In this document: one piece after another, positions 2,736 to 63,565 of the stretch
Layout of the letters: each line of letters opens with the position of its first letter
Position numbering within the stretch: the first letter of the stretch is position 1
Origin: Basidiobolus meristosporus CBS 931.73
Lineage: Eukaryota; Basidiobolomycota; Basidiobolomycetes; Basidiobolales; Basidiobolaceae
Direction: 5' to 3'
Assembly (NCBI GenBank): GCA_002104905.1
Contig: MCFE01000100.1
Span: 108,447-172,446 of the forward strand
DNA: 64,000 bases
Translations under genes and position numbers: made by a program
The notes under the pieces: model-generated
Seen by the model: the letters and a program-made list of their open reading frames with translations, nothing else
Database searches by the model: none
What the model was told of the DNA's origin: nothing

Positions 2736-3278
2736 CTAATACTGATTGAAGATGGCAAAATCATCAAAGTTGGTGTAAGGTTCCCAGGTGTTGTGTTTGG
2801 CATCATATCCTTTCCACTTGACTAAATAAGGGCAACTTAGTTCTTCTCTATCTTGGTCAACAATAGCTTCAACTTCATAGGATTTTGAAGTAACTGGGTC
2901 TTGAGATATAAGCTTCAGTGAAGAAGGTGGAAAGTTTTTGGGTAGCCATGCTCCTGTATTGTCCTGAAGTACATATGATCCTCCAGTGGTCCATCTGACA
3001 ACTTTGAATGGGCCTTCAAATTTGGGGTTGTGTTTAGATTGTTGGATTGGATCTAGTGTCATGACATATAACCCATCTGGCAAGCTGCTGTTCCTGTGTC
3101 TTAAGGCATATGTTGAAGTCATCTTTTGCTGTGAGGTCTTACATCTGGCACTGATATCAGGGTAGACAATGTTGTTAAGGTACTCAAGCCAGTTCTTTAG
3201 CTTGTCTGTATTCAATTTTGCTAACTCTGTATTCTGGTAGTCTCCAAAGTGTTTGAATTTTCTTCCATACATCAACAA
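2736..3278 (-). pseudogene. Gypsy integrase C-terminus with chromodomain
   Basis: A 180-codon open stretch. The middle part has the GPF/Y-like integrase module (FEGPFKVVRW followed by a Gly-Ser-Tyr-Val strand). The last 50 residues are a chromodomain: a Tyr-Glu-Val-Glu strand, LVKWKGY, an Asn-Thr-Trp-Glu-Pro turn and a final helix. In chromoviruses this domain steers insertion toward particular histone marks; that is family knowledge. The frame is offset from the integrase core upstream, so the protein is broken here. Confidence 0.8.
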
Positions 3279-3900
3279 AATGGCATCAATCCATGTAGAG
3301 CAGCAATTTTGGGGTTGATAGCATACTGTATGGTTGGAATGTACTTGTCCCAGTTACTCTTGATACCTTTGATAGATTTCATGATGATGATCACTGAGGT
3401 CTGAACATGTCTTTCAGCAAGTCCATTAGCTTTGCAATGATATGGAGTGATCAGAAGGTGATTAATGGCGCTATTCTGACAAAGGGTTTTGATCACGTGA
3501 TTCACAAACGCTGCTCCATTATCTGATTGAATTACCTTGCGGAATCCTAATAGGCAGAAGAGCTTGAATTGTGCTTGTGCAATAGTGACAGCATGCTTGT
3601 CTGGGATAGCTTGGAGGAAGACAATATATGTGCAGACATCCACAGCTGTAAAGAGGCAGTGATTACAATCATCAATAGTGGTGAAAGGTCCAGCCAGATC
3701 AATTGCAATATGATCCATAGGAAGGCTTGCATGGATGGGACTCAAAGGGTGAAATCCTAGTGATATCCATCAGAATGTAGCCTCTTCATAAGTGTGCCAG
3801 CTCCAAAGTGGCCATGCAAATGACTCCTCTGCATCAATGTTTTCATTTCATTGGCATGTGGAAATGTCCAAGTTGCTGAATCCAGTTAAGGAATTATTTT
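3272..3900 (-). pseudogene. Gypsy integrase core fragment
   Basis: The catalytic D,D,E triad can be read: Asp in IDLAGPF, Asp in QSDNGAAF and Glu in GLAER, with spacing typical of rve-type integrases. Upstream (about 3,750-3,900) a His-x3-His stretch (HLHGHFG) resembles half of the HHCC zinc-binding domain, but two in-frame stops separate it from the core. The core overlaps the chromodomain frame by a few bases, so a frameshift separates them. Confidence 0.8.
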
Positions 3901-4079
3901 GGAAGCTGTAGTGAGCTTACTGACTATGTCAGTAATCACATGTCCCTCCCAAGGTGAAGTTGGGAAAAGTCTTGAGAGGTGGTCAGGCAGGATGTTGAGG
4001 ATTCCTTGGCAATGAGTAACTGTATATTCATAATCAAGTTGAGTATCAAGCCAGTTGGTGAGCATTAGAGTCAGAGTCT

Positions 4080-5417
4080 GTTGAGTATGGATATAGACAA
4101 GGGCTTGGTGGTCAGTGTACAGGGTAAAGGGTTACCCCATAAGTACTGATGAAACTTCTTCAAGGCAACAACTATGGCAAGTGGCTCATTCTTAGCAGCA
4201 GAGTAGTTTCTCTCAGCAGGTTGTGGTGACTTGGCTTGGAAAGAGATCTAGTGAGGTGGATTTTGGTCTTCATCCTGGTATAGGACAGCCCCTAACCCAA
4301 CATTAGATGCATCTGTAGCAACAACAAAGGTCTTAGTAAGGCCTGGGTAGGATAGGGTGGGTGCTAGTGGGAGCAGCTGGCAGAGTGACTCAAATGCTTG
4401 GGCATGATCCTTGTTCCAGGCTGAAGGAAGATCAGGACTATGGCATGATGCATCCAAAGGGGCACTCAAAGAGGACATGAGAGGAATGTGTTCCCTGAAA
4501 TAGCTGAATACTCAAAGATAATGTTGGAGTTTCTTAGCGTTAGTGGGTTTTGGCCATTCAGGAATATTGACCAGCATGAAAGGGTCAAGTTGGTGGCCAT
4601 CTGGTGTGACTATGAATCCAGGAAGATTGATTTTGAGGCAAGCAAGACTGCACTTTTCAGCATTAAGAATCAGTCCAGCAGCTGTTAGTCTATTGATGAC
4701 ATTGATGACATGAGTTGCATGATCATCATGGTTTGTGGAAAATATGATGGCATCATCAACAAATACTAAGGTGTATGTTGCATTCTTGAGTATCATAGTC
4801 ATGACTCTCTGGAACATGCTGGTAAGTGTCTTTAGGCCAAAGGGAGCTCCCTGAAACATCCATTTCATAATATTCCTAGTAAAGGCAGTTGTATGCTGAT
4901 GATAAGGATGGATCTGGATTTGGTGATATGCATCCTTCATGTCCAATTTGGAGAATACTTTTACACCTGATAGTGAGGAAAAGATATCCTGGATTTGTGG
5001 AATTGGAAGTTTATCATCTTGGAGAAGTTTGTTCAGAGGTCTAGGGTCCAAACAGGGCCTCTTCAGAGTTAGATTTCCATTTGCATCCTTCTTGGGTGCA
5101 AGTATCAAAGGGCTATTGAATATTGTGTTGACAGGGGCTTGAGTGATAATTCCATTGTCAGCCCACTTTTGGACTATTTCATCAACTAAGTGCTGACAAG
5201 AATGTGGAATTGGGTATTGCCTCCTCCATGTTGACTCACCAGGTGGGGTTTCTAGCATAACAATGGATTCTGGAATAGTGCAGAAACTGCTCCTAGGAAT
5301 GACTTGGTTTCTTTCAATGGCCGGCTGAATTTCCAATTTGACTGATTGAGAATACACTTGAAAAGTTGGGGTTGCTCCTCTGCTTCCAGAAGGGGAGATA
5401 TAATCTCTGGAATCCAA
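4080..5417 (-). pseudogene. Gypsy reverse transcriptase and RNase H
   Basis: The main frame (5,417-4,512) contains ordered RT motifs: FSKLDMKDAYHQIQIH (first catalytic Asp), the QGAPFGLK region, and the catalytic VFVDDAIIFS box (a VDD variant of YVDD). After a frame break near 4,485 it continues (4,478-4,248) into the connection and RNase H start, with TDASNVGLGAVL as the first RNase H catalytic motif and then a stop at 4,248. RNase H-like sequence continues in broken form to about 4,080. All catalytic Asp residues needed for RT are still visible, but the polyprotein is not continuous. Confidence 0.85.
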
Positions 5418-7971: not shown

Positions 7972-9039
7972 CTAAATGTCCATACTGACTAGTCGTAATT
8001 TTGACCTAAGATATTCAAACTTGTCTCTAGCCAATGGTTTGGTAAATATGTCTGCAATCATTTCATCTGTAGAACAGTTAACTAAGCTAACTAAGTTATT
8101 CTCTATAGCTTCACGTATGAAATGATGTCTAATATCTATGTGCTTGGTTCTAGCATGAAAAGTTGGATTTCTACCTAATTGTATACATCCTTGATTATCT
8201 TGAAATAAAGTAATAGGCGTTTTTTGACATAGGCCTAAATCTGCAAAGAGCTTTCTTAACCACATTGCTTCTTTTGTAGCTTCACAGGCTGCAATATACT
8301 CTGCCTCTGTAGTAGAAAGTGCTACGGTTGGTTGCTTTCTTGAATTCCATGAAATTGCTCCTTTACAGTAAAGAAAGGTGTATCCTGTGGTGGATCTTCT
8401 GTCTTCCAAATTTTGTCCCCAATCAGCCTCAGAGTATCCCACAAGATCCTGTTCTGAATCCTTATAAGTGTATCTTAAGCAGATATCAGCAGTTTCTTTT
8501 AGGTATCTAAAAATCCGCTTAACTGCTGCAATATGATCAGATCCATAATTCTGATTATGTTGGCTGACAACTCCCACTGAATATGAGATATCTGGACGTG
8601 TTCCAAGCATGCTATACATCAGACTGCCGACCATAGATTGATAAGGAAAGTCAGGGCTTTCAGATGGCACCAAGCTCTCTTGATTTGGTTGAGTTTTGAC
8701 CAAGTTAAGGTTTGTCTCCATTGGGGTAGCTGCCGGTTTACAGTCTTCCAGTTGGTACTTCTTTAGTATATCTTGAATATACTTGGATTGGCTTATGGTG
8801 ATAGTCTGGGTACTTCTGTCTATGGAGAACTTAATCCCTAAGTAGTAACTAAGTTCTCCTAGATTGGACATCTTGAACTCCTTAGATAGGCTAGATTTAG
8901 TCTCTTCCAATGTTTCTAGGTTATTGGCGGCTAAAATAAGATCATCCACATATAGAGCTAATAGAACTGGATTTGCTCTATCTGGCTTATAGTATATACT
9001 ATAGTCAGCATTACTCCTTTTGAAACTCAAAGATTCCAA
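7972..9039 (-). pseudogene. Copia RT C-terminal half and RNase H
   Basis: A 355-residue open block. It contains the RT catalytic box LLALYVDDLILAANN (YVDD) near residue 30, the YYLGIKF strand, and a full RNase H: the GYSEADWGQNLEDRRSTTGY motif, the ALSTTEAEYIAACEA helix with the catalytic Glu, and the TKHIDIRHHFIRE motif near the end. It closes 12 bases inside the 3' LTR edge. It would be continuous with the RT N-terminal half (9,094-9,693) but for a stop near 9,093. Confidence 0.85.
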
Positions 9040-44786: not shown

Positions 44787-45942
44787 TCATTGCAGCAGGT
44801 CAGCGTTTCGTCTCTGAATGCTTCTTAGGCAATGTGTGGAGCAAACTCGATGCAGTAGAGGTATCGCCATCCCGAACTGCTTGGACTTCTCTAGTATCTG
44901 GAGGGGAGACTCGAAAACAGGGCGATGGCATACTGTACAATGTATTAGCTGGTTGTGTCGAAGGAGTTTGTATAGTCTAGTGGGGAATTTCTCAGGAATC
45001 GACAGAGGGGGTTGGAGGCTAAGAATCAGCCGGCCAGTGATCTCTCGCAGGGAGGGAAAGTAGTCGGGGTCGTTTTCCTCCTCCAACTGGAACACCAATG
45101 AGTCCTCAGACACTTGCAAAACCAGGTTCGGTATCTCCAGGATCTCCGCTGGCAAGTATTCGATATGATTTCCGGTGAGGAAAAGGGAATGGAGTTTGGG
45201 CATACGACCGATGGACGCGGGTATTCTGGTCATCTCATTGTTGAAGGCAAAGATCGCTTCCAAAGCGACGCACTTTGCTACGCTCAAGGGTAAGCCTTTG
45301 AGCTTGTTGTGGGCCACGTTGAGTGCGTTGAGCTTGGTAAGCCCGGAGAGATCGGGCAGGCTGGTGAGAAGGTTTCCACGTAAGCCTAGTGCCACCAGTT
45401 CGGTCAGTTCCCCAATCTCTTTGGGTAATTCTCGGATCTCGTTGCGTCCTAGTCCCAAAACCTTCAAGGTGCTCGCCCAGCTTCGCAGCACTTCCGGAGG
45501 CACACTTGTCAACCGGTTGTCGCTAAAATCGCAAATCTCTAGCCTTGTCCACGCCGCACATTTCTGCGGGATCTCTTCCAGAAGGTTTCCCCGAAGCCGC
45601 ACCTCCTTGAGGTATACCAAATCAAACACCGCCTCGGGTAGCTGACGTAGGTCTGCCTGTTGCAAATTCAAAAGAACGATGCTTTGGTATGAAGGAGAAA
45701 GCTTGATAGCTCGATTTGGGTCTAGAGGGGGCGGTGGAAGGGTTAGAAACAGAACTGGTAAAGGGAGACCGCATCACCGCTGCCTTACTTCTTCTGGTCA
45801 GTGAGCCGAGTATTCGTAAAAGTTTATTCCACCTCGCGGCATTTCGATCTACCCACCAACTTGGACGGTGGCTGTTCAGTGCGATCCTTAAGCCGTCACA
45901 AAAAAGGAAGCTCTCGGGCTCCTGTAGAAAGGGTGACATCAA
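44787..45942 (-). CDS. Leucine-rich repeat protein
   Basis: Two exons, 45,942-45,789 and 45,721-44,787, encode 362 residues. About eight LRRs run from residue 75 to 250 (LRQLPEAVFDL, LLEEIPQKCAAW, RLTSVPPEVL, EIRELPKEIG, LLTSLPDLSG, KLKGLPLSVA, EMTRIPASIG, HIEYLPAEIL), each with a LxxLP pattern. The C-terminal 100 residues have two Cys pairs (CTVCHRPVF, CSTHCL) that may bind zinc, as in LRRC58-like proteins. An adaptor role is likely; the partner is unknown. The intron lies before the first repeat, with branch-like CTAAC and a pyrimidine-rich tract. Confidence 0.88.
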
Positions 45943-46372
45943 GAGAGAAGCATGTAGTGGTGGTGGTTTGGTGGATTTAATATCTTTGCCATTGGTTTAT
46001 TGGATGATGGGTGCTGGTAGATCGTCACAAATCGATATCTGGGGTACTTCCGTGGTGGGAGGATGCATATCGAGATCGGAGACCAACCTCATGTTTAGGC
46101 TTGAAACTCTTCGGAGTTTCATAAGCATGAAAAAATGGCTGTTTTGAAATTGATGATTCATGTCCAAGATACAAGGCAAACATATGGTGAGGCCCATTTC
46201 TAAACGTTTTAAGATTTCTGGGAATTCCAGGGGAATGTTTGGGTGTTTGGATCAGGTGTAAGTGTAGAGTGTAAATAACGAGTTGGTTTCGAATTTCCTA
46301 GTCCAGTCATATTTATAACCTCCACTGCCCACTTTCCGTTTGAAGCACAGCGCTCTTGCTTACTTGTCTGCC
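45943..46372. promoter_or_regulatory. Divergent region LRR gene/repeat protein
   Basis: 430 bases. An ATTTATAACC element at about 46,310 is about 60 bases before the start of the repeat-protein gene and may be its TATA box. Nothing else seen. Confidence 0.45.
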
Positions 46373-49300
46373 ATGAAGCTTCATCCTCTAAGTTCACAGG
46401 GAAGGAGCTGTGGACTACGGATGCTCCACACAATTGCCACGTTGGTTATTGTGGGGAGTTTTGCTGATCTGGGTAGATACGTAGCTGCCGAATCCCCTGG
46501 ATATGGTCCTCCAAATAACGGTGGCTATGGATCCTCTAATAGCGATGGTTATGGTATGGGAGAGCTCAACTCCTACGGCGTATCCAAACCACAGGGCGCT
46601 TATGGTTCTAGTTCCTATGACAGCTCCAGCAATGGCTACGGCAGCGAGAGTACAATGAGGTACGGGGGCAACGTAGTGAAGAAATATGTACCCGGTAAGA
46701 CAGTAAAGAGAAAGGTGTATGGGGGAGGGACCACCGTCAAAAAGATCTACAAGCCCGGAAAGATCACCAAGAAGTATATCCCCGGCCAAAAGGTGAAGAG
46801 AAAGGGATACGGAAGTACTACTATCAAGAAAATCTACAGACCTGGAAAGACCATCAAGAAGAAGAAGTACATTCCCGGCCAGAAGGTGAAGAGAAAGGGA
46901 TACGGAAGTACTACTGTCAAGAAGATCTACAGACCTGGAAAGACCATCAAGAAGAAGAAGTACATTCCCGGCCAAAAGGTGAAGAGAAAGGGATACGGAA
47001 GTACTACTGTCAAGAAGATCTACAGACCTGGGAAGACCATCACCAAGAAGAAGTACATTCCCGGCCAGAAGGTGAAGAGAAAGGGATACGGAGGTACTAC
47101 CATCAAGAAGATCTACAGACCTGGAAAGACCATCAAGAAGAAGAAGTACATTCCTGGTCAAAAGGTGAAGAGAAAGGGATACGGAAGTACTACTGTCAAG
47201 AAGATCTATAGACCTGGGAAGACCATCAAGAAGAAGAAGTACATTCCCGGCCAGAAGGTGAAGACAAAGGGATACGGAGGTACTACCATCAAGAAGATCT
47301 ACAGACCTGGAAAGACCATCACCAAGAAGTACATTCCTGGTCAAAAGGTGAAGAGAAAGGGATACGGAAGTACTACTGTCAAGAAGATTTATAGACCTGG
47401 GAAGACCATCAAGAAGAAGAAGTACATTCCCGGCCAGAAGGTGAAGACAAAGGGATACGGAGGTACTACTGTCAAGAAGATCTACAGACCTGGAAAGACC
47501 ATCACCAAGAAGAAGTACATTCCCGGCCAGAAGGTGAAGAGAAAGGGATACGGAAGTACTACTGTCAAGAAGATTTATAGACCTGGGAAGACCATCAAGA
47601 AGAAGAAGTACATTCCCGGCCAGAAGGTGAAGACAAAGGGATACGGAAGTACTACTGTCAAGAAGAAGAAGTACATTCCCGGCCAGAAGGTGAAGAGAAA
47701 GGGATATGGAGGTACTACTATTAAGAAGAAAATCTACATCCCTGGAAAGGTGGTTAAGGTCAAGAAGCCTTATGGACCTACCTATGGCTACAAGAAGATC
47801 CGTATCCCAGGGCAAACCAAGTACAAGAAGGTCAAGATCCCCGGGAAAACCACCCTCAAGAAGGTTCCTTACGACGCGGTCTACAAGTACAAGAAAACCC
47901 AAATCCCTGGCGGAACCACCAAGAAGAAGGTTAAGGTTCCCGGCGGATACGGTAAGAAGAAGGTTCCGATCGACGCGGTATACGGCAAGAAGAAGGTGTA
48001 CAAAGGAAAATACGGGGATTCCGAAAGCCAGTGGGGCTACAAGAAGATCCGTGTGCCAGGTGGCTTTACTAAGAAGAAGGTCAAGGTTCCTGATCAGTAC
48101 AAGTACAAGAAGGCCAAGATCCCTGGCGAGACCCAGTACAAGAAAGTCAAGGTTCCTGGGAAAACGGTTACCGAAAAGGTGCCTACCCCTCCAGTATACG
48201 GAACCAAGAAGATCCGGATTCCAGGGAAGACCGTCACCAAGCCTGATCCTTACAAGACCAAGACCATTACAGTCAAGAAACAGATCCCCCCACAGTACGG
48301 CTACAAGACCGTCGAGATCCCGGGAGGGTATACCACCAAGAAGCGGGTCATTCCGGGCAAAACCATTAAGAAGAAGGTTCCATACGGCAAGCAGTATGGC
48401 TACAAGAAGGTCTACGTCGACGGAGAGCCAGTCAAAACGAAGGTTCAGATCCCTGGGCAAACATACATCAAGAAGGTGCGCATCCCTGCGGAATACGGCT
48501 ACAAAAAGATCGCCGTGCCAGGAAAAACCACCAACAAGAAGTACAAAGTGCCCGGAGGAAGCAAGAAAATCAAGTACAAGAAGCCGGCTACTTATAAATA
48601 CGTGCGACGCAAGATCTCAGGTGGCACCACCACCAAGACGGTGCAGATTCCTGGCCAGACTCTTACAAGAAAGATCCCGACCAGTCCTAGATACGTTTAC
48701 AAGAGGATACCTGTTGAAGGAGGGTTCACCAAAAAGAAGGTTGCAGTCTCAGGTAAGACCATCAAGACCAAGGTCCCAACAAAGGCCGAATACAAGTATG
48801 TCAAGTACCAGGTTCCTGGTGGGACTAAGGTGGTTAAGACCCGAGTCCCCGGAAAGCTTACTCGCCAGAAATACAAGATCCCAGCCAAGTACGGCTACAA
48901 GACAACCAAGGAGAATGGACCACCAAGCTACAAGAAGATCTACGTTCCAGGGAAAACGATGGTCCAGAAAGTGCTTGTGCCAAAAGATAAGGATACTAAG
49001 GTTTATCTGCCACCGGATCAGGAATTTGTGGAGGAGTACTACAATGAAAGTATCGGTACTTTCGTACATAGACTCAAGCATTGCTCGTGGAATATTGACC
49101 AGAAGCAGTATAACTGTGTAATTGAGAAGGACTCGGTTGATGAGTATTTGCAGCCTGACTCCACCAACAGCCGTATCCCCCTTGAGCAACGCTACATTGA
49201 GGAGTACTACGATGAGATTAGCCAGAGCATCAGACGTCGTTTCAGAGTGTGTACCTGGAGCTCCGAAGCCAGAGACACTGTCTGCCACACTGAACAGATG

Positions 49301-51304
49301 CCCGATAGCCCGGATACTCCTCGAGTGCGGGATCCAGGAGAATTTGTCACGAATGTGTATCTACCACCAGACCGTGTCTACACCGATGAGTACTACGACA
49401 AGACTACCAACACTGTACGCAGGAGACTCAGAGTGTGTACTTGGAGTGTCGTGGACAAACGGTACAACTGCTCCTTCAGAGACATCGGTAACGACTTCAG
49501 GGTGGGTTACGGAGAGGAGACGGTGATTACCGAGTTCGTGGACACATGGAAGGGTGAAATCAAGTATCAGATCAGAAGTTGCAAGCTATCCTCGGAAGGG
49601 GCTGAGCGTGAGTGCACCGTCGATAACGGAGTAAGCTCAGATGGCTATAAGCCTTTGGGAGCAACGTACAAGGAGGGATATGCCAACGATATCATCCGTG
49701 GAAACACTCGAATCCGGTCGGCTTACTGGCCCGAGAAATCCTCGGCCAACCAACGGGTATACATCTATGAATACATCGACAAGCCTAGCAGGAAGTACAA
49801 GAGACGTCTGATGATCTGTCGCCTTGACAAGCAGTGGGAGTGCGCCACCTCCAACGACCACGTTCTAAGCTCGCCATTGGATATCATCCATGTAAACCCT
49901 CGCGGCCAGCAGCCCAACCTCATCAAGCTGGAAAGTCCTAATGAGGTAGAGAATATCAACCTGTCTGCCGGGAAGAACCCTCCAACTGAGCGAATCTACG
50001 TCCAAGAGTACCTGGACCCGATCACCAGCGCCATCCAGAGGAGAATCAAGGTTTGCACACTCGGCAAAAAAGCATGGGAATGTACGCTCTCTGACACTGG
50101 ATCCACTTACGGCCAACTGAGCCAGAGAGTGCTTGGTGACGATGAGGTGGAGACGGTTGACCTGTACTTCGATTACACCGGAAGAATCACCCGAAACACA
50201 AAAACATGTAATACCAAGTACAAGGACCAGTGCCAGAATGATTCATCCAAGTTTGGCGGATTCAAGCCCATGCTTGGGGAAAATAATTCTTCCGAGTTGT
50301 CGTTGTACAGTGGACTCAAGTTGCAGAATGTTTACTGGCCAGATATCGACCCAAAGGGCCCCGTTTCTGATAGAGTGTATGTATACGAATTCGTGGATCA
50401 GACTTCGCGCAAAGTCGAGAGACGCATAGTTTTGTACAGGTTTGACGCGGATTCTCGCTCCTGGAAGTACACCACCGTTCCAGGTGAAAAACTATCGAGC
50501 CATGTTGATTTCGACTCCCTCACTGTTGATGGTGCTGATGGTGACATCGTTTTGAACAACGGAAATAGCAGGGAGGTACTGCACTTCTCCACCGGCAAGG
50601 GTGCCCCCCCTACCGAAAGAATCTTTATTCAAGAGTATTTCGATGCTACCTCTGGTTTCATTCGACGACGAACAAAATTCTGTATATTCAACAACAGTTC
50701 CCAGAAATGGGATTGGTCCGATAAGGATGAAGAGCTAGGTGGCCTGGATCCTTACGCTAGTACTGTGCAACTTCCATCCGACAGAACATATGTTGATGAG
50801 TATGTGGATTCCGATACTGGCAGGAAAACTGTCAAGACCACTACCTGCAGATATGACATTAGCAAGAGAGATTGGGACTGCACGCGAAACGTGAGCGCTG
50901 GTTTCGACGAGGGCTGGGAGGGCCAAGACTCTGATGTTCAAATCAGTAGAAGCGACTCGGAGAGTGATTCTTTGAATAGCCTGGAATGGTCCAGCGAGTT
51001 TAGCTCCTATGACGATGACTTGCATAGTTTTGAGAGCGACTTGAGCTTTGATGAAGATGAGGACGATGATATTCTACTGGACGACGACTTTAGTTCGTCC
51101 TCTACAGAATATTTGTACAAAGCTCCTTTGAGCATAACATCCCACAAGGTGGCCCATCCCAACAAATCCCATGCTTCTGTGAAGCTCGTCGACAAGAAAC
51201 CAGGTGGTAAGGACATGAAGCCCGTCTACAAGAAACCAAGTGGTAACGACATGAAGCCCGTCGACAAGAAACCAAGTGGTAACGACATGAGGCCCGGTTA
51301 CTAA
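46373..51304 (+). CDS. Secreted Lys/Tyr/Gly/Pro repeat protein, novel
   Basis: A single exon of 1,643 residues from the ATG at 46,373. The N-terminus has a hydrophobic segment (MLHTIATLVIVGSF) fitting a signal peptide after a short basic lead. Then come a Gly/Ser/Tyr/Asn region; about eleven 31-residue repeats with KYIPGQKVK and KGYGSTTVKK (residues about 135-460); an irregular region of [IV]PG[GKQ] turns between Lys/Tyr/Val strands (to about residue 875); about ten Cys- and aromatic-rich repeats (about 880-1,510); an acidic Ser/Asp/Glu segment; and four KKPSGNDMKPV-like repeats at the end. I know no family with this order. The composition recalls extracellular adhesive or elastic proteins, by analogy only. 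Codon and base use match the neighbouring genes, so it is not an obvious recent import. Confidence 0.9.
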   Translation: MKLHPLSSQGRSCGLRMLHTIATLVIVGSFADLGRYVAAESPGYGPPNNGGYGSSNSDGYGMGELNSYGVSKPQGAYGSSSYDSSSNGYGSESTMRYGGNVVKKYVPGKTVKRKVYGGGTTVKKIYKPGKITKKYIPGQKVKRKGYGSTTIKKIYRPGKTIKKKKYIPGQKVKRKGYGSTTVKKIYRPGKTIKKKKYIPGQKVKRKGYGSTTVKKIYRPGKTITKKKYIPGQKVKRKGYGGTTIKKIYRPGKTIKKKKYIPGQKVKRKGYGSTTVKKIYRPGKTIKKKKYIPGQKVKTKGYGGTTIKKIYRPGKTITKKYIPGQKVKRKGYGSTTVKKIYRPGKTIKKKKYIPGQKVKTKGYGGTTVKKIYRPGKTITKKKYIPGQKVKRKGYGSTTVKKIYRPGKTIKKKKYIPGQKVKTKGYGSTTVKKKKYIPGQKVKRKGYGGTTIKKKIYIPGKVVKVKKPYGPTYGYKKIRIPGQTKYKKVKIPGKTTLKKVPYDAVYKYKKTQIPGGTTKKKVKVPGGYGKKKVPIDAVYGKKKVYKGKYGDSESQWGYKKIRVPGGFTKKKVKVPDQYKYKKAKIPGETQYKKVKVPGKTVTEKVPTPPVYGTKKIRIPGKTVTKPDPYKTKTITVKKQIPPQYGYKTVEIPGGYTTKKRVIPGKTIKKKVPYGKQYGYKKVYVDGEPVKTKVQIPGQTYIKKVRIPAEYGYKKIAVPGKTTNKKYKVPGGSKKIKYKKPATYKYVRRKISGGTTTKTVQIPGQTLTRKIPTSPRYVYKRIPVEGGFTKKKVAVSGKTIKTKVPTKAEYKYVKYQVPGGTKVVKTRVPGKLTRQKYKIPAKYGYKTTKENGPPSYKKIYVPGKTMVQKVLVPKDKDTKVYLPPDQEFVEEYYNESIGTFVHRLKHCSWNIDQKQYNCVIEKDSVDEYLQPDSTNSRIPLEQRYIEEYYDEISQSIRRRFRVCTWSSEARDTVCHTEQMPDSPDTPRVRDPGEFVTNVYLPPDRVYTDEYYDKTTNTVRRRLRVCTWSVVDKRYNCSFRDIGNDFRVGYGEETVITEFVDTWKGEIKYQIRSCKLSSEGAERECTVDNGVSSDGYKPLGATYKEGYANDIIRGNTRIRSAYWPEKSSANQRVYIYEYIDKPSRKYKRRLMICRLDKQWECATSNDHVLSSPLDIIHVNPRGQQPNLIKLESPNEVENINLSAGKNPPTERIYVQEYLDPITSAIQRRIKVCTLGKKAWECTLSDTGSTYGQLSQRVLGDDEVETVDLYFDYTGRITRNTKTCNTKYKDQCQNDSSKFGGFKPMLGENNSSELSLYSGLKLQNVYWPDIDPKGPVSDRVYVYEFVDQTSRKVERRIVLYRFDADSRSWKYTTVPGEKLSSHVDFDSLTVDGADGDIVLNNGNSREVLHFSTGKGAPPTERIFIQEYFDATSGFIRRRTKFCIFNNSSQKWDWSDKDEELGGLDPYASTVQLPSDRTYVDEYVDSDTGRKTVKTTTCRYDISKRDWDCTRNVSAGFDEGWEGQDSDVQISRSDSESDSLNSLEWSSEFSSYDDDLHSFESDLSFDEDEDDDILLDDDFSSSSTEYLYKAPLSITSHKVAHPNKSHASVKLVDKKPGGKDMKPVYKKPSGNDMKPVDKKPSGNDMRPGY
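46770..47750 (+). repeat. 93-bp coding tandem repeat
   Basis: Eleven copies of a unit of about 93 bases (31 codons), for example the Tyr codons at 46,775, 46,868 and 46,961. Two types alternate: units with KRKGYGST and with KTKGYGGT; some lack a Lys or the IYRPGKT part, and the tenth is short. Units are close to identical at DNA level, which suggests recent duplication or gene conversion, and could vary in number between strains. Confidence 0.9.
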
Positions 51305-51594
51305 ATCCTGTTTCTTGCATATACATATACAGTAAAACACCATCCTTTGTTAGCCTCTTTTTTGAGAAATCACGTAATAAAATTGACGATGAAGTACACT
51401 TGCTGCAAACTTTTCCTTCAATCTGTGGCTCTTGATCAGAGTTGAACCTGTATCACATAACCTTCCGTAAACATCCCATTGTGCAATCGTAAAGTGCGGT
51501 TTTGGGTAAATGTCGTGCTCAAGCTTTCTTATGCAACACAAGATGCGACCACTCGTAGAAGGGTCCGAAGCCTACTAATCCATCAATCTTGCTG
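51305..51594. other. Gap before the CNT gene
   Basis: Under 300 bases, between two plus-strand genes. No motif recognised. Confidence 0.4.
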
Positions 51595-53346
51595 ATGCTT
51601 CAATCGTCTTTAACTTCCCTTCTTGCGTTATTGTCACACAGGATCAAGCAAATAAAATGGTGGCTGCCCATGGAATGCAACCACACCATCATGGCTGCCG
51701 ACAACACTACAGAACTTTCAAAGTCAGTGCCTCATCCCATATCCTCTCTGCCTGTCACCACCGGTGACAAGTATCCAGATAATGAAAAAATCCATCCCGA
51801 AAGAGGCTTCTACCACCGCTATCGTCTATGGTTTCATCTGCTTATGTTTGTGGCTATCACTAGCTTAATCATAGCTGCATGGGTGCTACATGGAAATGAA
51901 ACGTTGGTCCTTTCGTTGCTATGGGCTTTCATATCCTTGAAGCTTATGTTCTATCACGTGCCTACCAAAATTCTTTCAAAGCCATTGGGCTTGTTCTTCG
52001 GTGCCATCATAAAAGCAGTGTCAGCTATCCCCGCAAAAGCTCGGCCTATTTTGGGTGTTCTACTTTCCGTTGCGCTGATCATATCGGTTGCCCTGGCTCT
52101 TCCTACAATCGAGGGCCATAGTAGTCGTTTAGACCGGTTGCGATCACTATTGGGGCTTGTGGTATTCTTGGTAATACTGTATGCCACCTCTAATAATCGC
52201 AAGCTCATCCCTTGGAGAACAGTTGTAGTTGGCATCTTGTTGCAGTTCCTTCTTGGGCTGTTCATCCTTAAAACATCGGTTGGTTATGATATCTTCAGCT
52301 GGTTGTCAAACATGTGCTCTACTCTTCTTCAGTTCTCAGGAGCTGGTTTGGCCTTTGTGACTACCAATGAAATAGCCAGTATTCCCATCATTGTCTTCAC
52401 AGTATTACCAGCAGTGATTTTCTTCGCAGCTATCGTTCGCATAGTGTACTACTTGGGGGGTATGCAGTGGATTGTCCGAAAATTTGCCTGGCTAATGGTA
52501 AGACTAATGGGTACTAGTGGCGCGGAATCTGTTGTTGCTGCCGCTTCACCATTTGTCGGTATGGGAGAATCGTCTTTGCTCATTCTTCCGTTCTTGGAGA
52601 CGTTAACTCGTAGTGAGCTCCACTCAGCCATGACATCAGGGTTCGCTACTATTTCAGGCTCCGTGTTGGTAGCTTATATATCGATGAAGGTTGATGCCCA
52701 GACCCTAATCACTTCGTGTGTCATGTCTGTTCCTTGCGGCTTGGCCATTTCCAAGATGCGTTTCCCAGAAACCGGAGAGCCGGTTACCAAGGGTGCGGTG
52801 CGGATCCCTGATGGCGGGGGAGAGAAAGAAGCAAATTTCCTGCATGCTGCCTCCAATGGTGCTGCCCAGGGTATCCAATTGGCGCTGTTGATTCTTGCCA
52901 CTGTCCTGTCATTTATCTCTCTGTTGACTCTGGTCAATGCCTTCCTCACCTGGTTGGGAAATTTCCTGAACATCGATCATCTGACACTGGAGCTGGTTGT
53001 CGGTTATCTGTTCTATCCATTCATGTGGTTGGTAGGAATTCCTACAGTTAATATGCTGGCGATTGCCAGACTAATGGCCACAAAAATGTTTGTCAATGAA
53101 TTCGCTGCGTTCGCTCAGCTTTCGCAACTGGCTGCTTCAGGTGTGCTCACAGAAAGAGCCAACTCATTGGCCATCTACTGTTTGTGTGGATTTGCCAATT
53201 TTGGATCCATTGGGATTCAAATAGGTGCCCTAGGGGCCATGGCCCCAAGTCGCAAGAAAGATCTTGCTGAGCTTGCATTCTCAGCTATGTTGTGCGGCAC
53301 TATGTCAACATTAATGAGTGCTACTGTGGCTGGGATGTTGCTGTAG
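51595..53346 (+). CDS. Concentrative nucleoside transporter (CNT/SLC28)
   Basis: One exon; ATG at 51,595, 51,670 or 51,691 are possible starts, the last having the best context (A at -3, G at +4). From 51,691 it has 551 residues. About ten membrane helices can be seen. Family motifs: AAASPFVGMGESSLLILPFL, LTRSELHSAMTSGFATISGSVLVAYIS, ANSLAIYCLCGFANFGSIGIQIGALGAMAP and AMLCGTMSTLMSATVAGMLL. Such proteins import nucleosides with Na+ or H+. They are found in some fungi but missing in baker's yeast. The N-terminal 90 residues are variable. It sits just before the right-hand transposon block. Confidence 0.92.
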   Translation: MLQSSLTSLLALLSHRIKQIKWWLPMECNHTIMAADNTTELSKSVPHPISSLPVTTGDKYPDNEKIHPERGFYHRYRLWFHLLMFVAITSLIIAAWVLHGNETLVLSLLWAFISLKLMFYHVPTKILSKPLGLFFGAIIKAVSAIPAKARPILGVLLSVALIISVALALPTIEGHSSRLDRLRSLLGLVVFLVILYATSNNRKLIPWRTVVVGILLQFLLGLFILKTSVGYDIFSWLSNMCSTLLQFSGAGLAFVTTNEIASIPIIVFTVLPAVIFFAAIVRIVYYLGGMQWIVRKFAWLMVRLMGTSGAESVVAAASPFVGMGESSLLILPFLETLTRSELHSAMTSGFATISGSVLVAYISMKVDAQTLITSCVMSVPCGLAISKMRFPETGEPVTKGAVRIPDGGGEKEANFLHAASNGAAQGIQLALLILATVLSFISLLTLVNAFLTWLGNFLNIDHLTLELVVGYLFYPFMWLVGIPTVNMLAIARLMATKMFVNEFAAFAQLSQLAASGVLTERANSLAIYCLCGFANFGSIGIQIGALGAMAPSRKKDLAELAFSAMLCGTMSTLMSATVAGMLL

Positions 53347-56219: not shown

Positions 56220-58967
56220 CAAGAGTGTGTAGCTGAGGGGAATTTGTAGATAAGTTAATAAGAAGTGATGATAGTTCTTCAGTGCTCAAGACACTGTTCA
56301 GTGGGAAGGGGGTAGCAAGAGAGGTAAGAATGACTTGTGAACAACATTAATGAGGGGAATGTGATAAGGATTGATATTCATCATAAAGGGAGTGTGCTGC
56401 TGCAGATATTGCTGCCAAAGGTCTGTCAAGTACTTCAGGTAGGCCAGCTTGGGCTTTTCTGACTGCAGAATATAGTGAGCAAACTTCTTGACTTCAGGAT
56501 CTCCAAGTATAGTTCTCCAGCAGGAGCCAGGTGTTGTGTGGTGTGTTCTCTTCCAGGCCTTAATCAGTGGGTTGTTGCAGTTGTGAAATCTGAGGTATAA
56601 TCTGGTTCTAAGGTAGAGAAGTCTGATCTTATAGGGCATAAGCCCAAATGCACCAAGAATAGCATGTCTGTAGGGGCATTCAGGCAAATGAGGCACCAGG
56701 GAGGTAATGCACCATACTGCAAACTTGTCAAGCTTAGTGCAGTCTCTAGAAGTAAGAGAGAGAAGTGGTAAGCCAAATTCCAGGACAGGGAAGACAAACT
56801 GCTTGAGTAGAAGGAGGCAGCTGGGAGCTGAAGTTGTAGGAGGAGTAACAGCCAGTAGCTTGTGGAGTGCCTGTCTTGCCAGGATAATTCTCTTCTTCAG
56901 GTGTGCTCCAGAGTCTAGTCCAGTAGGAAGGAAAGGAAAACCAAGTTATGTAGCAGAAACCTGAGCAGGTAGAGTGGAGTTCTCCAAGTTGATGGGAGAG
57001 CCCAAAGGTACTGTCTTTGCAATGGAAAGCTGGAGATTATTCTTCTGCAGATACTGGTGGATGGTCTGGGAGTCTTGTTGCACATTGGAGGAGGATATTC
57101 TGATGTCATCAGCAAAGAGAGTAACCAGGCAGTCAGCTGAGAGTCTTGGGAAATCATTCAGGAAGATGGCAAACAGTATAGGACCAAGCACAGAGCCTTG
57201 AACCACTCCATTAGGAACTCAGAACACAGCTGATTGCTCACTTGGGTGCAGAATTCTTGCTTGTGGATCCAGAAACAGAGACCTGACAAGGAGGGTGAGA
57301 GAGGTACTGGAGAAGCATTGCAACTTGGACCAAAGCAGATTTCTGTCAACTGAATCAAAGGCCTTAGTAATATCAAACAGAACAGAGGGATACTTGCACT
57401 GGAGAGAGTGATCTTGGCTAAGTATGACTGCATATTCCAAGGAGAGGCCAGGAACAAAGCCAAACTGTGCAGGATGAAGCTTGAGGGAGTTAGAGTAGAG
57501 CTCCTGAGCAAGCAGAAGCTCAAACACCTTTCTGCAGGTGGGCAGCAGAGATATTGGCCTGTAGGAGCTAGGATCCAGGTGCTTTCCTTTACCCTTGTAC
57601 AGTGGCAGAACATTTGCAAAGGACCATTCCTCAGGATTAGAAAGCTGGGCTGAGCATTGCTGAAACAGTGGAAGCAGAAGTGCAGACATGGCCTTGGTAC
57701 TAGTCTTCAGAAGCTCATAAGAGATTGTGTCCACACCTGGAGCAGTAGAGTTGGGAAGCCTCTTGAGCACATTATGGATTCTCCTTTGATCAAGTGCAAG
57801 TGGAATGGGCAGAGTCTTGAAGTCAGGATGAAAGCCAGGAGTTGAGTACTGCTTTGTAGAGAAGAAGATGTTAGCCAGCTGTTGTGTTGAAGGTAACTTC
57901 CTGGAAGAGGGCCTTATTGCCCTGTAGAGTCTTGATACTGTTCTTGTTATAGAGTTGGAAGATTGCAGAGGCAAAGAACTCATAATATGATCCCAGAGCT
58001 GAGTATGCAGAGTGTGGTGAATTGCCTTGGAGTGGTGTATTGCTGTCAGGAGGAGTTTCTCTGTTTTTGGGTTAGGGAAACTCAGGTAGCTTTGTTGCAG
58101 GGCTGAAACAATGGATTCCCATTTTCTTGAGGTAACAGCAGTAGTCTTGCATGGCAGTGAGAGGGAGGCAGAGACCAGAATCAGATGCTTCACAAAGAGC
58201 CAGGCATAGTTGAGATCATCTGGCAGAGAAAGTAGCAAACTGGCAAGCTTCAAGTAGTTCCCAAAGTCTTTCTTCTGATTCTTGGTAGCTTTGTGGGTGA
58301 GCACAGTAAGTTTTGGCAGCTTCTTCTTCACAACTGGTTGCATAGAAAGGGACCAGGCTGGGTGGTCAGAGGCTCTCAAGGATCCTAGCTCAGCTCCAGA
58401 GAATTGCTTAACTTCATTCACAAAGTAGAGGGCAGCAGCAGAAGGGCAGATCCAGTCAACACATCTTTTCTCAGATTGAGCACCTAGTGCTAGCAGATGG
58501 CTTTCTCTCAGGAAGTTCAGTAGGAATGTAGACCTTGGCTTCATTCTTGCAGTCAGAGTAGTCTTGTTCTCAGGATGGGGAATGTTGAGATCTCCAAGCA
58601 AGATAATAGGTGTTGATATAGATCGCTGGTATTGCTGAACTTTCTGGCATATAACTTGCACTTCCTGAAGGGCAAGACTTGGAGGCAGATAGCAGAGCAC
58701 CAGACTGATAGTTGGCAACTGGAGAGCAGCACAGTAAGGGGAGTAAAGAGGAACACAGAGCTGAGGAGTATTGATGGTAGAAGAGATGAAGCAGATAGAG
58801 GAGGTATTCTTTGTTCTAGGAGTAGAAAAGCAATATAGATTAGTCAAAAGTATAGAGGGTAGCTGGACATCAATCAAACACAAGAGGGAAAATCTTGAAA
58901 GAAGTCTCTCTAGAGTTGGTCTTGATGGCTGTATGCTGTTGCAGTTAAGCAACAGAACTTCAGGTAG
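56220..58967 (-). pseudogene. LINE copy 1 ORF2: endonuclease and RT, with stops
   Basis: The AP-like endonuclease (NCNSIQPSRP, LGDLNIPHPENK, VDWICPS, SDHPAWS) is followed by RT with YKGKGKHLDPSSYRPISLLPT, LFDITKAFDSVDR, GVVQGSVLGPILFAIFLNDF and the catalytic FADDIRIS. Two nonsense changes against copy 2 are at 57,219-57,221 (TCA to TGA) and 56,946-56,948 (TAT to TAA). A one-base difference in a G run at about 56,309 shifts the C-terminus. It follows ORF1 in the same frame after UGA. Confidence 0.85.
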
Positions 58968-60796: not shown

Positions 60797-63565
60797 CTAC
60801 TGTTGTAGCTTTGATACAAGAGTGTGTAGCTGAGGGGAATTTGTAGGTAAGTTAATAAGAAGTGATGATAGTTCTTCAGTGCTCAAGACACTGTTCAGTG
60901 GGAAGGGGGGTAGCAAGAGAGGTAAGAATGACTTGTGAACAACATTAATGAGGGGAATGTGATAAGGATTGATATTCATCATAAAGGGAGTGTGCTGCTG
61001 CAGATATTGCTGCCAAAGGTCTGTCAAGTACTTCAGGTAGGCCAGCTTGGGTTTTTCTGACTGCAGAATATAGTGAGCAAACTTCTTGACTTCAGGATCT
61101 CCAAGTATAGTTCTCCAGCAGGAGCCAGGTGTTGTGTGGTGTGTTCTCTTCCAGGCCTTAATCAGTGGGTTGTTGCAGTTGTGAAGTCTGAGGTATAATC
61201 TGGTTCTAAGGTAGAGAAGTCTGATCTTATAGGGCATAAACCCAAAAGCACCAAGAATAGCATGTCTGTAGGGGCATTCAGGCAAATGAGGCACCAAGGA
61301 GGTAATGCACCATACTGCAAACTTGTCAAGCTTAGTGCAGTCTCTAGAAGTAAGAGAGAGAAGTGGTAAGCCAAATTCCAGGACAGGGAAGACAAACTGC
61401 TTGAGTAGAAGGAGGCAGCTGGGAGCTGAAGTTGTAGGAGGAGTAACAGCCAGTAGCTTGTGGAGTGCCTGTCTTGCCAGGATAATTCTCTTCTTCAGGT
61501 GTGCTCCAGAGTCTAGTCCAGTAGGAAGGAAAGGAAAGCCAAGATATGTAGCAGAAACCTGAGCAGGTAGAGTGGAGTTCTCCAAGTTGATGGGAGAGCC
61601 CAAAGGTACTGTCTTTGCAATGGAAAGCTGGAGATTATTCTTCTGCAGATACTGGTGGATGGTCTGGGAGTCTTGTTGCACATTGGAGGAGGATATTCTG
61701 ATGTCATCAGCAAAGAGAGTAACCAGGCAGTCAGCTGAGAGTCTTGGGAAATCATTCAGGAAGATGGCAAACAGTATAGGACCAAGCACAGAGCCTTGAA
61801 CCACTCCATTAGGAACTGAGAACACAGCTGATTGCTCACTTGGGTGCAGAATTCTTGCTTGTGGATCCAGAAACAGAGACCTGACAAGGAGGGTGAGAGA
61901 GGTACTGGAGAAGCATTGCAACTTGGACCAAAGCAGATTTCTGTCAACTGAATCAAAGGCCTTAGTAATATCAAACAGAACAGAGGGATACTTGCACTGG
62001 AGAGAGTGATCTTGGCTAAGTATGACTGCATATTCCAAGGAGAGGCCAGGAACAAAGCCAAACTGTGCAGGATGAAACTTGAGGGAGTCAGAGTAGAGCT
62101 CCTGAGCAAGCAGAAGCTCAAACACCTTTCTGCAGGTGGGCAGCAGAGATATTGGCCTGTAGGAGCTAGGATCCAGGTGCTTTCCTTTACCCTTGTACAG
62201 TGGCAGAACATTTGCAAAGGACCATTCCTCAGGAGTAGAAAGCTGGGCTGAGCATTGCTGAAACAGTGGAAGCAGAAGTGCAGACATGGCCTTGGTACTA
62301 GTCTTCAGAAGCTCATAGGAGATTGTGTCCACACCTGGAGCAGTAGAGTTGGGAAGCCTCTTGAGCACATTATGGATTCTCCTTTGATCAAGTGCAAGTG
62401 GGATGGGCAGAGTCTTGAAGTCAGGATGAAAGCCAGGAGTTGAGTACTGCTTTGTAGAGAAGAAGATGTTAGCCAGCTGTTCTGTTGAAGGTAACTTCCT
62501 GGAAGAGGGCCTCATTGCCCTGTAGAGTCTTGATACTGTTCTTGTTATAGAGTTGGAAGATTGCAGAGGCAAGGAACTCATAATATGATCCCAGAGCTGA
62601 GTATGCAGAGTGTGGTGAATTGCCTTGGAGTGGTGTATTGCTGTCAGGAGGAGTTTCTCTGTTTTTGGGTTAGGGAAACTCAGGTAGCTTTGTTGCAGGG
62701 CTGAAACAATGGATTCCCATTTTCTTGAGGTAACAGCAGTAGTCTTGCATGGCAGTGAGAGGGAGGCAGACACCAGAATCAGATGCTTCACAAAGAGCCA
62801 GGCATAGTTGAGATCATCTGGCAGAGAAAGTAGCAAACTGGCAAGCTTCAAGTAGTTCCCAAAGTCTTTCTTCTGATTCTTGGTAGCTTTGTGGGTGAGC
62901 ACAGTAAGTTTTGGCAGCTTCTTCTTCACAACTGGTTGCATAGAAAGGGACCAGGCTGGGTGGTCAGAGGCTCTCAAGGATCCTAGCTCAGCTCCAGAGA
63001 ATTGCTTAACTTCATTCACAAAGTAGAGGGCAGCAGCAGAAGGGCAGATCCAGTCAACACATCTTTTCTCAGATTGAGCACCTAGTGCTAGCAGATGGCT
63101 TTCTCTCAGGAAGTTCAGTAGGAATGTAGACCTTGGCTTCATTCTTGCAGTCAGAGTAGTCTTGTTCTCAGGATGGGGAATGTTGAGATCTCCAAGCAAG
63201 ATAATAGGTGTTGATATAGATTGCTGGTATTGCTGAACTTTCTGGCATATAACTTGCACTTCCTGAAGGGCAAGACTTGGAGGCAGATAGCAGAGCACCA
63301 GACTGATAGTTGGCAACTGGAGAGCAGCACAGTAAGGGGAGTAAAGAGGAACACAGAGCTGAGGAGTATTGATGGTAGAAGAGATGAAGCAGATAGAGGA
63401 GGTATTCTTTGTTCTAGGAGTAGAAAAGCAATATAGATTAGTCAAAAGTATAGAGGGTAGCTGGACATCAATCAAACACAGGAGGGAAAATCTTGAAAGA
63501 AGTCTCTCTAGAGTTGGTCTTGATGGCTGTATGCTGTTGCAGTTAAGCAACAGAACTTCAGGTAG
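60797..63565 (-). CDS. LINE copy 2 ORF2: endonuclease and reverse transcriptase
   Basis: About 922 codons, open from directly after the ORF1 TGA to the TAG at 60,797. Domains: AP-type endonuclease (residues about 5-225; LGDLNIPHPENK, VDWICPS, SDHPAWS), linker, RT (about 440-640; SSYRPISLLPT, FDITKAFDSVDR, QGSVLGPILFAIFLND, LFADDIRIS), thumb and a C-terminal region with a Cys/His pattern (HLPECPYRH; GSCWRTI). It nicks target DNA and copies element RNA there. There is no ATG at the start; the first Met comes at about residue 140, inside the endonuclease, so expression from its own AUG is not possible for a full protein. Confidence 0.9.
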   Translation of the reverse strand, partial: LPEVLLLNCNSIQPSRPTLERLLSRFSLLCLIDVQLPSILLTNLYCFSTPRTKNTSSICFISSTINTPQLCVPLYSPYCAALQLPTISLVLCYLPPSLALQEVQVICQKVQQYQQSISTPIILLGDLNIPHPENKTTLTARMKPRSTFLLNFLRESHLLALGAQSEKRCVDWICPSAAALYFVNEVKQFSGAELGSLRASDHPAWSLSMQPVVKKKLPKLTVLTHKATKNQKKDFGNYLKLASLLLSLPDDLNYAWLFVKHLILVSASLSLPCKTTAVTSRKWESIVSALQQSYLSFPNPKTEKLLLTAIHHSKAIHHTLHTQLWDHIMSSLPLQSSNSITRTVSRLYRAMRPSSRKLPSTEQLANIFFSTKQYSTPGFHPDFKTLPIPLALDQRRIHNVLKRLPNSTAPGVDTISYELLKTSTKAMSALLLPLFQQCSAQLSTPEEWSFANVLPLYKGKGKHLDPSSYRPISLLPTCRKVFELLLAQELYSDSLKFHPAQFGFVPGLSLEYAVILSQDHSLQCKYPSVLFDITKAFDSVDRNLLWSKLQCFSSTSLTLLVRSLFLDPQARILHPSEQSAVFSVPNGVVQGSVLGPILFAIFLNDFPRLSADCLVTLFADDIRISSSNVQQDSQTIHQYLQKNNLQLSIAKTVPLGSPINLENSTLPAQVSATYLGFPFLPTGLDSGAHLKKRIILARQALHKLLAVTPPTTSAPSCLLLLKQFVFPVLEFGLPLLSLTSRDCTKLDKFAVWCITSLVPHLPECPYRHAILGAFGFMPYKIRLLYLRTRLYLRLHNCNNPLIKAWKRTHHTTPGSCWRTILGDPEVKKFAHYILQSEKPKLAYLKYLTDLWQQYLQQHTPFMMNINPYHIPLINVVHKSFLPLLLPPFPLNSVLSTEELSSLLINLPTNSPQLHTLVSKLQQ

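Follow-up and report, generated by a model that had tools for sequence, protein, structure and literature searches.

A Lys/Tyr-rich repeat protein of Basidiobolus meristosporus: candidate for a genus-specific, secreted and cross-linkable matrix protein

Mussel foot protein 1 (FP-1) is marked by a Lys content above 11% and a Tyr content of up to 15% (PMC4220933). A screen for such a mussel-like Lys/Tyr composition in the diatom Amphora led to AC3362, a cell-wall protein that is no proven glue (PMC4220933). For fungi, Kex2-processed repeat proteins of the ust-RiPS type are defined by three or more tandem copies of 8-100 aa bounded by KR, KK, RK or RR, and the 43 proteins of this type counted for B. 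meristosporus CBS 931.73 are the most of any strain (PMC7329392). Capilliconidia with adhesive tips are described to hold to insects in two papers (PMC10964425, PMC7466969), and adhesive material on the beak is described for a sister genus in a third (PMC13370150). RNA-seq data of B. meristosporus are also available (PMC7466969). Among open-licence papers, no literature was found on the protein presented here or on a protein of the capilliconidial glue.

Gene structure and protein architecture

The window, i.e. the whole stretch of 64,000 bases that was analyzed, covers bases 108447-172446 of a 172446-base contig of the B. meristosporus assembly (89.0 Mb, 1311 contigs). The gene consists of one uninterrupted frame on the plus strand, 46373-51304, encoding 1643 aa. 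The frame is open over 46340-51304 and its earliest ATG is found at 46373. This start is supported by two homologues, K7432_006122 and K493DRAFT_295966, whose N-termini are related and start at the equivalent position (the former from the alignment, the latter by eye). At the given base composition 1643 open codons would occur by chance with a probability of about 10^-38, and the other two plus-strand frames contain 39 and 94 stops. Among the copies of a 31-residue repeat, 138 synonymous and 50 non-synonymous differences were counted (pN/pS 0.098; 27 codons of nine units, all pairs), distributed over codon positions 1, 2 and 3 as 36, 14 and 138. Since the copies vary mainly at third positions, this array is a translated repeat. 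The gene is coding and under constraint.

Table 1. Positions of the features of the gene and its protein in the window; segment boundaries were set by the authors.
Feature	Residues	Positions	Strand	Properties
TATA-like box TATTTATA		46310..46317	+	63 nt upstream of the ATG
Signal-like N-terminus	1-39	46373..46489	+	hydrophobic core TIATLVIVGSFA, possible cut YVAA/ES
Gly/Tyr/Ser-rich stretch	40-100	46490..46672	+	25% G, 13% Y, 23% S
31-residue tandem array	101-452	46673..47728	+	31% K, 10% Y, net +127
[IV]PG array	453-880 (428 residues)	47729..49012	+	25% K, 10% Y, 10% P, net +101
Cys-aromatic region	881-1510	49013..50902	+	nine YVxEYxD...RRxxxC...WxC units
Ser/Asp/Glu-rich acidic tail	1511-1582	50903..51118	+	net -25
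Lys/Pro C-terminal tail	1583-1643 (61 residues)	51119..51301	+	about three 12-residue repeats
AATAAA polyadenylation-type signal		51376..51381	+	starts 72 nt past the stop

A preliminary description of the locus had proposed an undescribed Lys/Tyr-rich repeat protein with a signal-like N-terminus, about eleven 31-residue repeats, a region of [IV]PG turns, Cys-aromatic repeats and an acidic tail. This outline holds on closer analysis. At the N-terminus the top 12-mer hydropathy reaches 2.08 and no value above 1.3 follows past residue 60 (hydropathy heuristic). The hydrophobic core is modest and preceded by a leader of 19 residues. Modest cores are also exhibited by K7432_006122 (1.76) and K493DRAFT_295966 (1.56), both of which share the small -3/-1 site. 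Signal-like N-termini are present in all three family members that have an N-terminus. Eleven KKYIPGQ starts are located at residues 133-432. The full pattern is matched by nine units, of which one has only 30 residues; the final two of the eleven are cut short. Tandem Repeats Finder (TRF) detected a 93-bp period with 9.7 copies at 91%. This region contains neither Asp nor Glu. The [IV]PG motif occurs 31 times in the protein, 18 times within the PG array. Nine Cys-aromatic units of about 40 residues were counted by their motif; their YVxEYxD, RRxxxC and WxC strands are taken from an AlphaFold2 model of the region that is nearly all-beta at a mean pLDDT of 47. The acidic tail was found as described, but the protein ends in the Lys/Pro tail. 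Lys and Tyr account for 16.3% and 7.9% of the whole protein, and for 31.0% and 9.7% of the 31-residue array as well as 24.8% and 10.0% of the PG array.

The TATA-like 8-mer TATTTATA occurs in about 0.3% of 40-nt windows. It is found identically at -66 in the paralogous gene on contig C380, and a third repeat gene on contig C539 (see below) exhibits TATATA at -65 and -63. All three repeat genes of B. meristosporus thus carry a TATA box 63-66 nt ahead of the start codon. Four further genes of the window (CNT, PPR, V-ATPase A, RVB) have neither TATTTATA nor TATAWA within 110 nt of their ORF ATGs. The shared box would suit switched expression of the three repeat genes.

Several further frames were observed in the window. 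An antisense open frame of 681 aa (46415-48460, minus) overlaps the repeat array and is probably a by-product of the biased codons, as 85% of the Lys codons of the gene are AAG. The neighbors encode a Na+-dependent nucleoside transporter of the CNT type (51589-53346, plus) and a leucine-rich-repeat protein (44787-45671, minus), and no functional link to either is seen. Near the contig end two near-identical RVT_1 (reverse transcriptase) frames of 577 and 917 aa are located (57219-58952 and 60797-63550, minus), which we read as non-LTR type. Retroelement fragments were also detected at 2736-5417 and 7972-9039 (minus), with chromodomain and RVT_1 frames and with an RVT_2 frame, the latter being copia-type by our reading.

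Relatives and evolution of the two arrays

The family comprises four proteins: the window protein, K493DRAFT_295966 of B. meristosporus, and K7432_006122 and K7432_015417 of B. ranarum. K493DRAFT_295966 corresponds letter for letter to the 1249-aa frame of the C380 paralogue. Of 7988 candidates scored against the window protein, three relatives were obtained at E up to 0.001, and each of them is from Basidiobolus. A search with 685 residues from the Cys region of K7432_015417 gave three proteins, including the query itself, out of 5718 candidates with an E limit of 10. Both searches can detect a relative only where it has short exact words in common with the query. In the B. meristosporus genome the Cys region matched the window contig and C380 only, at E up to 1. 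With an E limit of 1 the window protein matched no Pfam family, and none of the four family proteins has a Pfam match above the curated cut-off, in accordance with the preliminary view of an undescribed protein. Bacterial proteins with VPAxY-type repeats exist. A bacterial origin was rejected, as no bacterial relative was confirmed among genome contigs (36 and 33 pattern matches, Cys and PG alignments) and none was found in plasmids. A pattern search with the 11-mer unit gave 0 matches and also missed the known gene itself, which makes it uninformative. As judged from these searches, the family is so far found only in Basidiobolus.

K7432_006122 and K493DRAFT_295966 match the window protein in the order of N-terminal leader, PG array and Cys-aromatic repeats. 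K7432_015417 shares the PG array followed by the Cys-aromatic repeats; it is apparently incomplete, because it lies on a contig of 4174 bases and its N-terminal part is absent. Over the 629 columns that are ungapped in all four proteins, K7432_006122 is 53%, K7432_015417 63% and K493DRAFT_295966 44% identical to the window protein. In these columns 9 of its 10 Cys, 6 of 7 Trp and 26 of 40 Pro are identical in all four, as are 23 of 48 Tyr and 21 of 74 Lys; by position, Lys and Tyr are thus kept only in part. The tree pairs the window protein with K7432_015417 and K7432_006122 with the C380 paralogue (four tips, long C380 branch; ultrafast bootstrap 100 for the Cys region and 93 for the PG region). 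This pairing is as expected if a duplication predates the split of the two species, and points towards two old paralogue lineages, both kept in B. meristosporus and B. ranarum.

Two findings go beyond the preliminary description, namely that the PG array has a period of 11/33 residues and that its length is conserved, unlike that of the 31-residue array. The PG unit comprises 11 residues, approximately KK[IV]x[IV]PGxTxx, with strand-turn character and arranged in 33-residue super-repeats. Autocorrelation amounts to 0.363 at 33 and 0.285 at 11, compared to 0.123 (sd 0.016) for shuffled sequences, and the 44 Pro show a period-11 phase clustering of 0.46, compared to 0.435 as the highest value among 10,000 randomized placements. 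Pairwise comparison of the window protein, K7432_006122 and K493DRAFT_295966 over about 430 residues gave 46-56% identity with 0-2 internal gap events. As a slipping, disordered array would vary in length, this suggests that the array either adopts a defined fold or has to keep a fixed spacing; the PG array behaves as a length-fixed strand/turn array. With low confidence, AlphaFold2 predicts 28 strands, 16 of them of 7-9 residues, at a mean pLDDT of 46 and a pTM of 0.16. The basic charge of the array is kept, with a net charge of +101 in the window protein, +68 in K7432_006122 and +70 in K493DRAFT_295966.

The 31-residue array was seen in the window gene only and is absent from all three homologues. 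At its place K7432_006122 has 11-residue PGKTIEKNDYT units and K493DRAFT_295966 a mixed stretch (both by eye). The array is the most Lys/Tyr-rich part of the window protein, and the matching stretch of the paralogue has 0.9% Tyr and a net charge of +15. By comparison of the available family members, it is a lineage-specific array without conserved length, unlike the PG array.

The C539 gene (L009:2970-4709, minus) encodes 579 aa with a signal-like start and 11/34-residue Lys/Tyr/Pro repeats. Its alignment to the PG array scores 12 sd above shuffles, but block-shuffled units score as high; the likeness is not colinear and may or may not reflect a common origin. Unlike the window protein, it has PD/PA-Y turns beside PG and a Gly/Tyr/Lys/Pro tail and is devoid of a Cys-aromatic region (by eye); it shares only the repeat style with the family. 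When the C539 protein was used as query, no match was obtained, not even to itself (E limit 10, 8000 candidates scored), and the window protein was likewise absent from the relatives listed in its own search. Both proteins are therefore apparently not included in the searched set, perhaps due to repeat masking at annotation.

Proposed function and alternatives

The N-terminal leader, the charge pattern, the supply of Tyr and Lys and the pairing of Cys would fit a secreted, self-associating material. Secretion as a material is likely on these features, and a material making use of Lys and Tyr is plausible. For the more defined proposal of a secreted, cross-linkable extracellular matrix protein specific to Basidiobolus, either of the wall or adhesive, we consider the chances to be about even. 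The putative N-terminal signal would be cleaved upon export. The middle 780 residues have the composition and period described above and are weakly predicted to form a cationic array of beta strands and Pro-Gly turns, presenting Tyr and Lys at regular intervals. The C-terminal region with its regular Cys pattern may fold into disulphide-paired beta repeats that anchor or oligomerize the protein, and the basic arrays could associate with the acidic Ser/Asp/Glu tail by charge. Tyr and Lys would then be cross-linked, most likely by secreted tyrosinases, potentially resulting in a hardened coat or a sticky layer on the spore or hypha. Several observations speak against the proposal: the Tyr and Lys residues are only partly conserved by position, the 31-residue array as the part richest in both is not shared by the paralogue, the hydrophobic cores of the homologues are modest, and the structure predictions are of low confidence.

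The search for such enzymes in the B. meristosporus genome gave 55 exon-level tyrosinase (PF00264) matches, which we merged into 32 loci on 30 contigs. One locus on C447 and one on C1126 received the same scores, perhaps because a single gene was assembled twice. The five top-scoring of the 32 loci all have a signal-like start, three by hydropathy score and two by eye; for L020-L022 an internal Met of the listed ORF was taken as start. None of the 14 control genomes contained any tyrosinase, which makes this control uninformative on an expansion. Lysyl oxidase and transglutaminase were not found in searches run without a positive control. Among the window genes searched or read, which represent part of the ORFs, a tyrosinase or DUF3328 gene was not seen, either beside the gene or elsewhere. 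Tyrosinases may also serve melanin or peptide making. Their number would allow, but does not show, the conversion of Tyr to Dopa and quinone tanning of the window protein.

B. meristosporus is a fungus of frog and lizard guts whose sticky spores ride insects. The most attractive site of the product would be the adhesive tip of the capilliconidium, although any wall layer is possible. In the most specific version the protein would be a quinone-tanned glue that evolved independently within Basidiobolus and holds capilliconidia to insect cuticle, i.e. a fungal counterpart of the mussel byssus. It would combine a polycationic strand-turn array rich in Lys and Tyr with a C-terminal anchor locked by disulphides and with an acidic tail, and would be set by secreted tyrosinases. 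This version is rather unlikely in its entirety. The family provides candidate genes for the capilliconidial glue, of which B. meristosporus has two and B. ranarum at least two. Were the glue version true, the adhesive would be a protein of non-animal origin built on an unusual strand-turn design of 11 residues; should the proteins belong to the wall, they would still form a structural family seen only in Basidiobolus, with the window member missing from the protein set searched.

A structural wall protein of spore, zygospore or hypha without adhesive function is possible, though less likely than the matrix proposal. There, the cationic array would bind acidic wall polymers and the Cys repeats would lock the layer. 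It draws on the same features as the matrix proposal, from which it differs in place and stickiness only, and no specific finding opposes it. It is also supported by the precedent of AC3362, the Lys/Tyr-rich diatom protein that was picked by mussel-like composition and turned out to belong to the cell wall (PMC4220933). More distant is a Kex2-processed precursor from which dibasic cuts release many copies of short peptides. Between dibasic sites the window protein contains IYRPGKTI six times and IYRPGKTIT three times, which conforms to the published rule by our own count of exact copies instead of the program used there, and such proteins are numerous in the strain as a whole (43; PMC7329392). 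By the same exact-copy count, however, such a repeat is absent from all three homologues, and with KR and RR alone no fragment of at least 8 aa recurs three times. KR is missing from 3 of 11 copies, which argues against this site being strictly required. The conserved part, PG array and Cys region, comprises 1058 of 1643 residues, unlike a peptide precursor, and the lack of a tyrosinase or DUF3328 gene among the window genes covered points in the same direction. We regard such a precursor as unlikely.

The very high Lys content, together with the modest hydrophobic core behind its leader, could also indicate a basic protein that stays inside the cell for want of a functional signal peptide and serves as a scaffold or binds nucleic acids. 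The N-terminus is, however, conserved across paralogues while the next stretch is not, the Cys are paired and conserved, and no family match above the curated cut-off was obtained for the four proteins. A match to a characterized intracellular family, named in the preliminary description as an argument against a secreted protein, was not found in Pfam or in the protein search. An intracellular role is thus very unlikely, and the secreted matrix protein remains our preferred reading.

Comparison with known systems

Some matches to known proteins were rejected. The designed proteins dTor_12x31L and dTor_9x31L in the PDB (E 1.6e-4 and 5.3e-4) were regarded as coincidental in their 31-residue period and composition. 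Weak Wnt matches of K7432_006122 (E 0.0053) and K7432_015417 (E 0.00081), under the Pfam cut-off, and a Wnt match of the profile in the PDB (E 0.7) were taken as chance; further, weaker Pfam matches of the family proteins are all under the cut-off.

The comparison with elastin drawn in the preliminary description was abandoned. The likeness to elastin and elastin-like polypeptides consists of Pro-Gly turns after a branched hydrophobic residue, but VPGXG is absent from all four family proteins, the period is 11/33 and not 5, and the PG array is strongly charged and conserved in length, unlike elastin. With fungal Kex2-processed repeat proteins of the ust-RiPS type the window protein shares the signal-like start and repeats between dibasic sites; the family differs from them by its large conserved PG and Cys regions and by the absence of dibasic repeats in the homologues.

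The PSYPP motif, part of the mussel decapeptide, has a count of 0 in the window protein, and no mussel protein is among the listed matches. In composition, the arrays of the window protein are close to the FP-1 marks for Lys and Tyr, being repetitive and high in both residues. Compared to mussel foot protein 1, the window protein is distinguished by the period of its PG turns and by its Cys-bearing C-terminal region.
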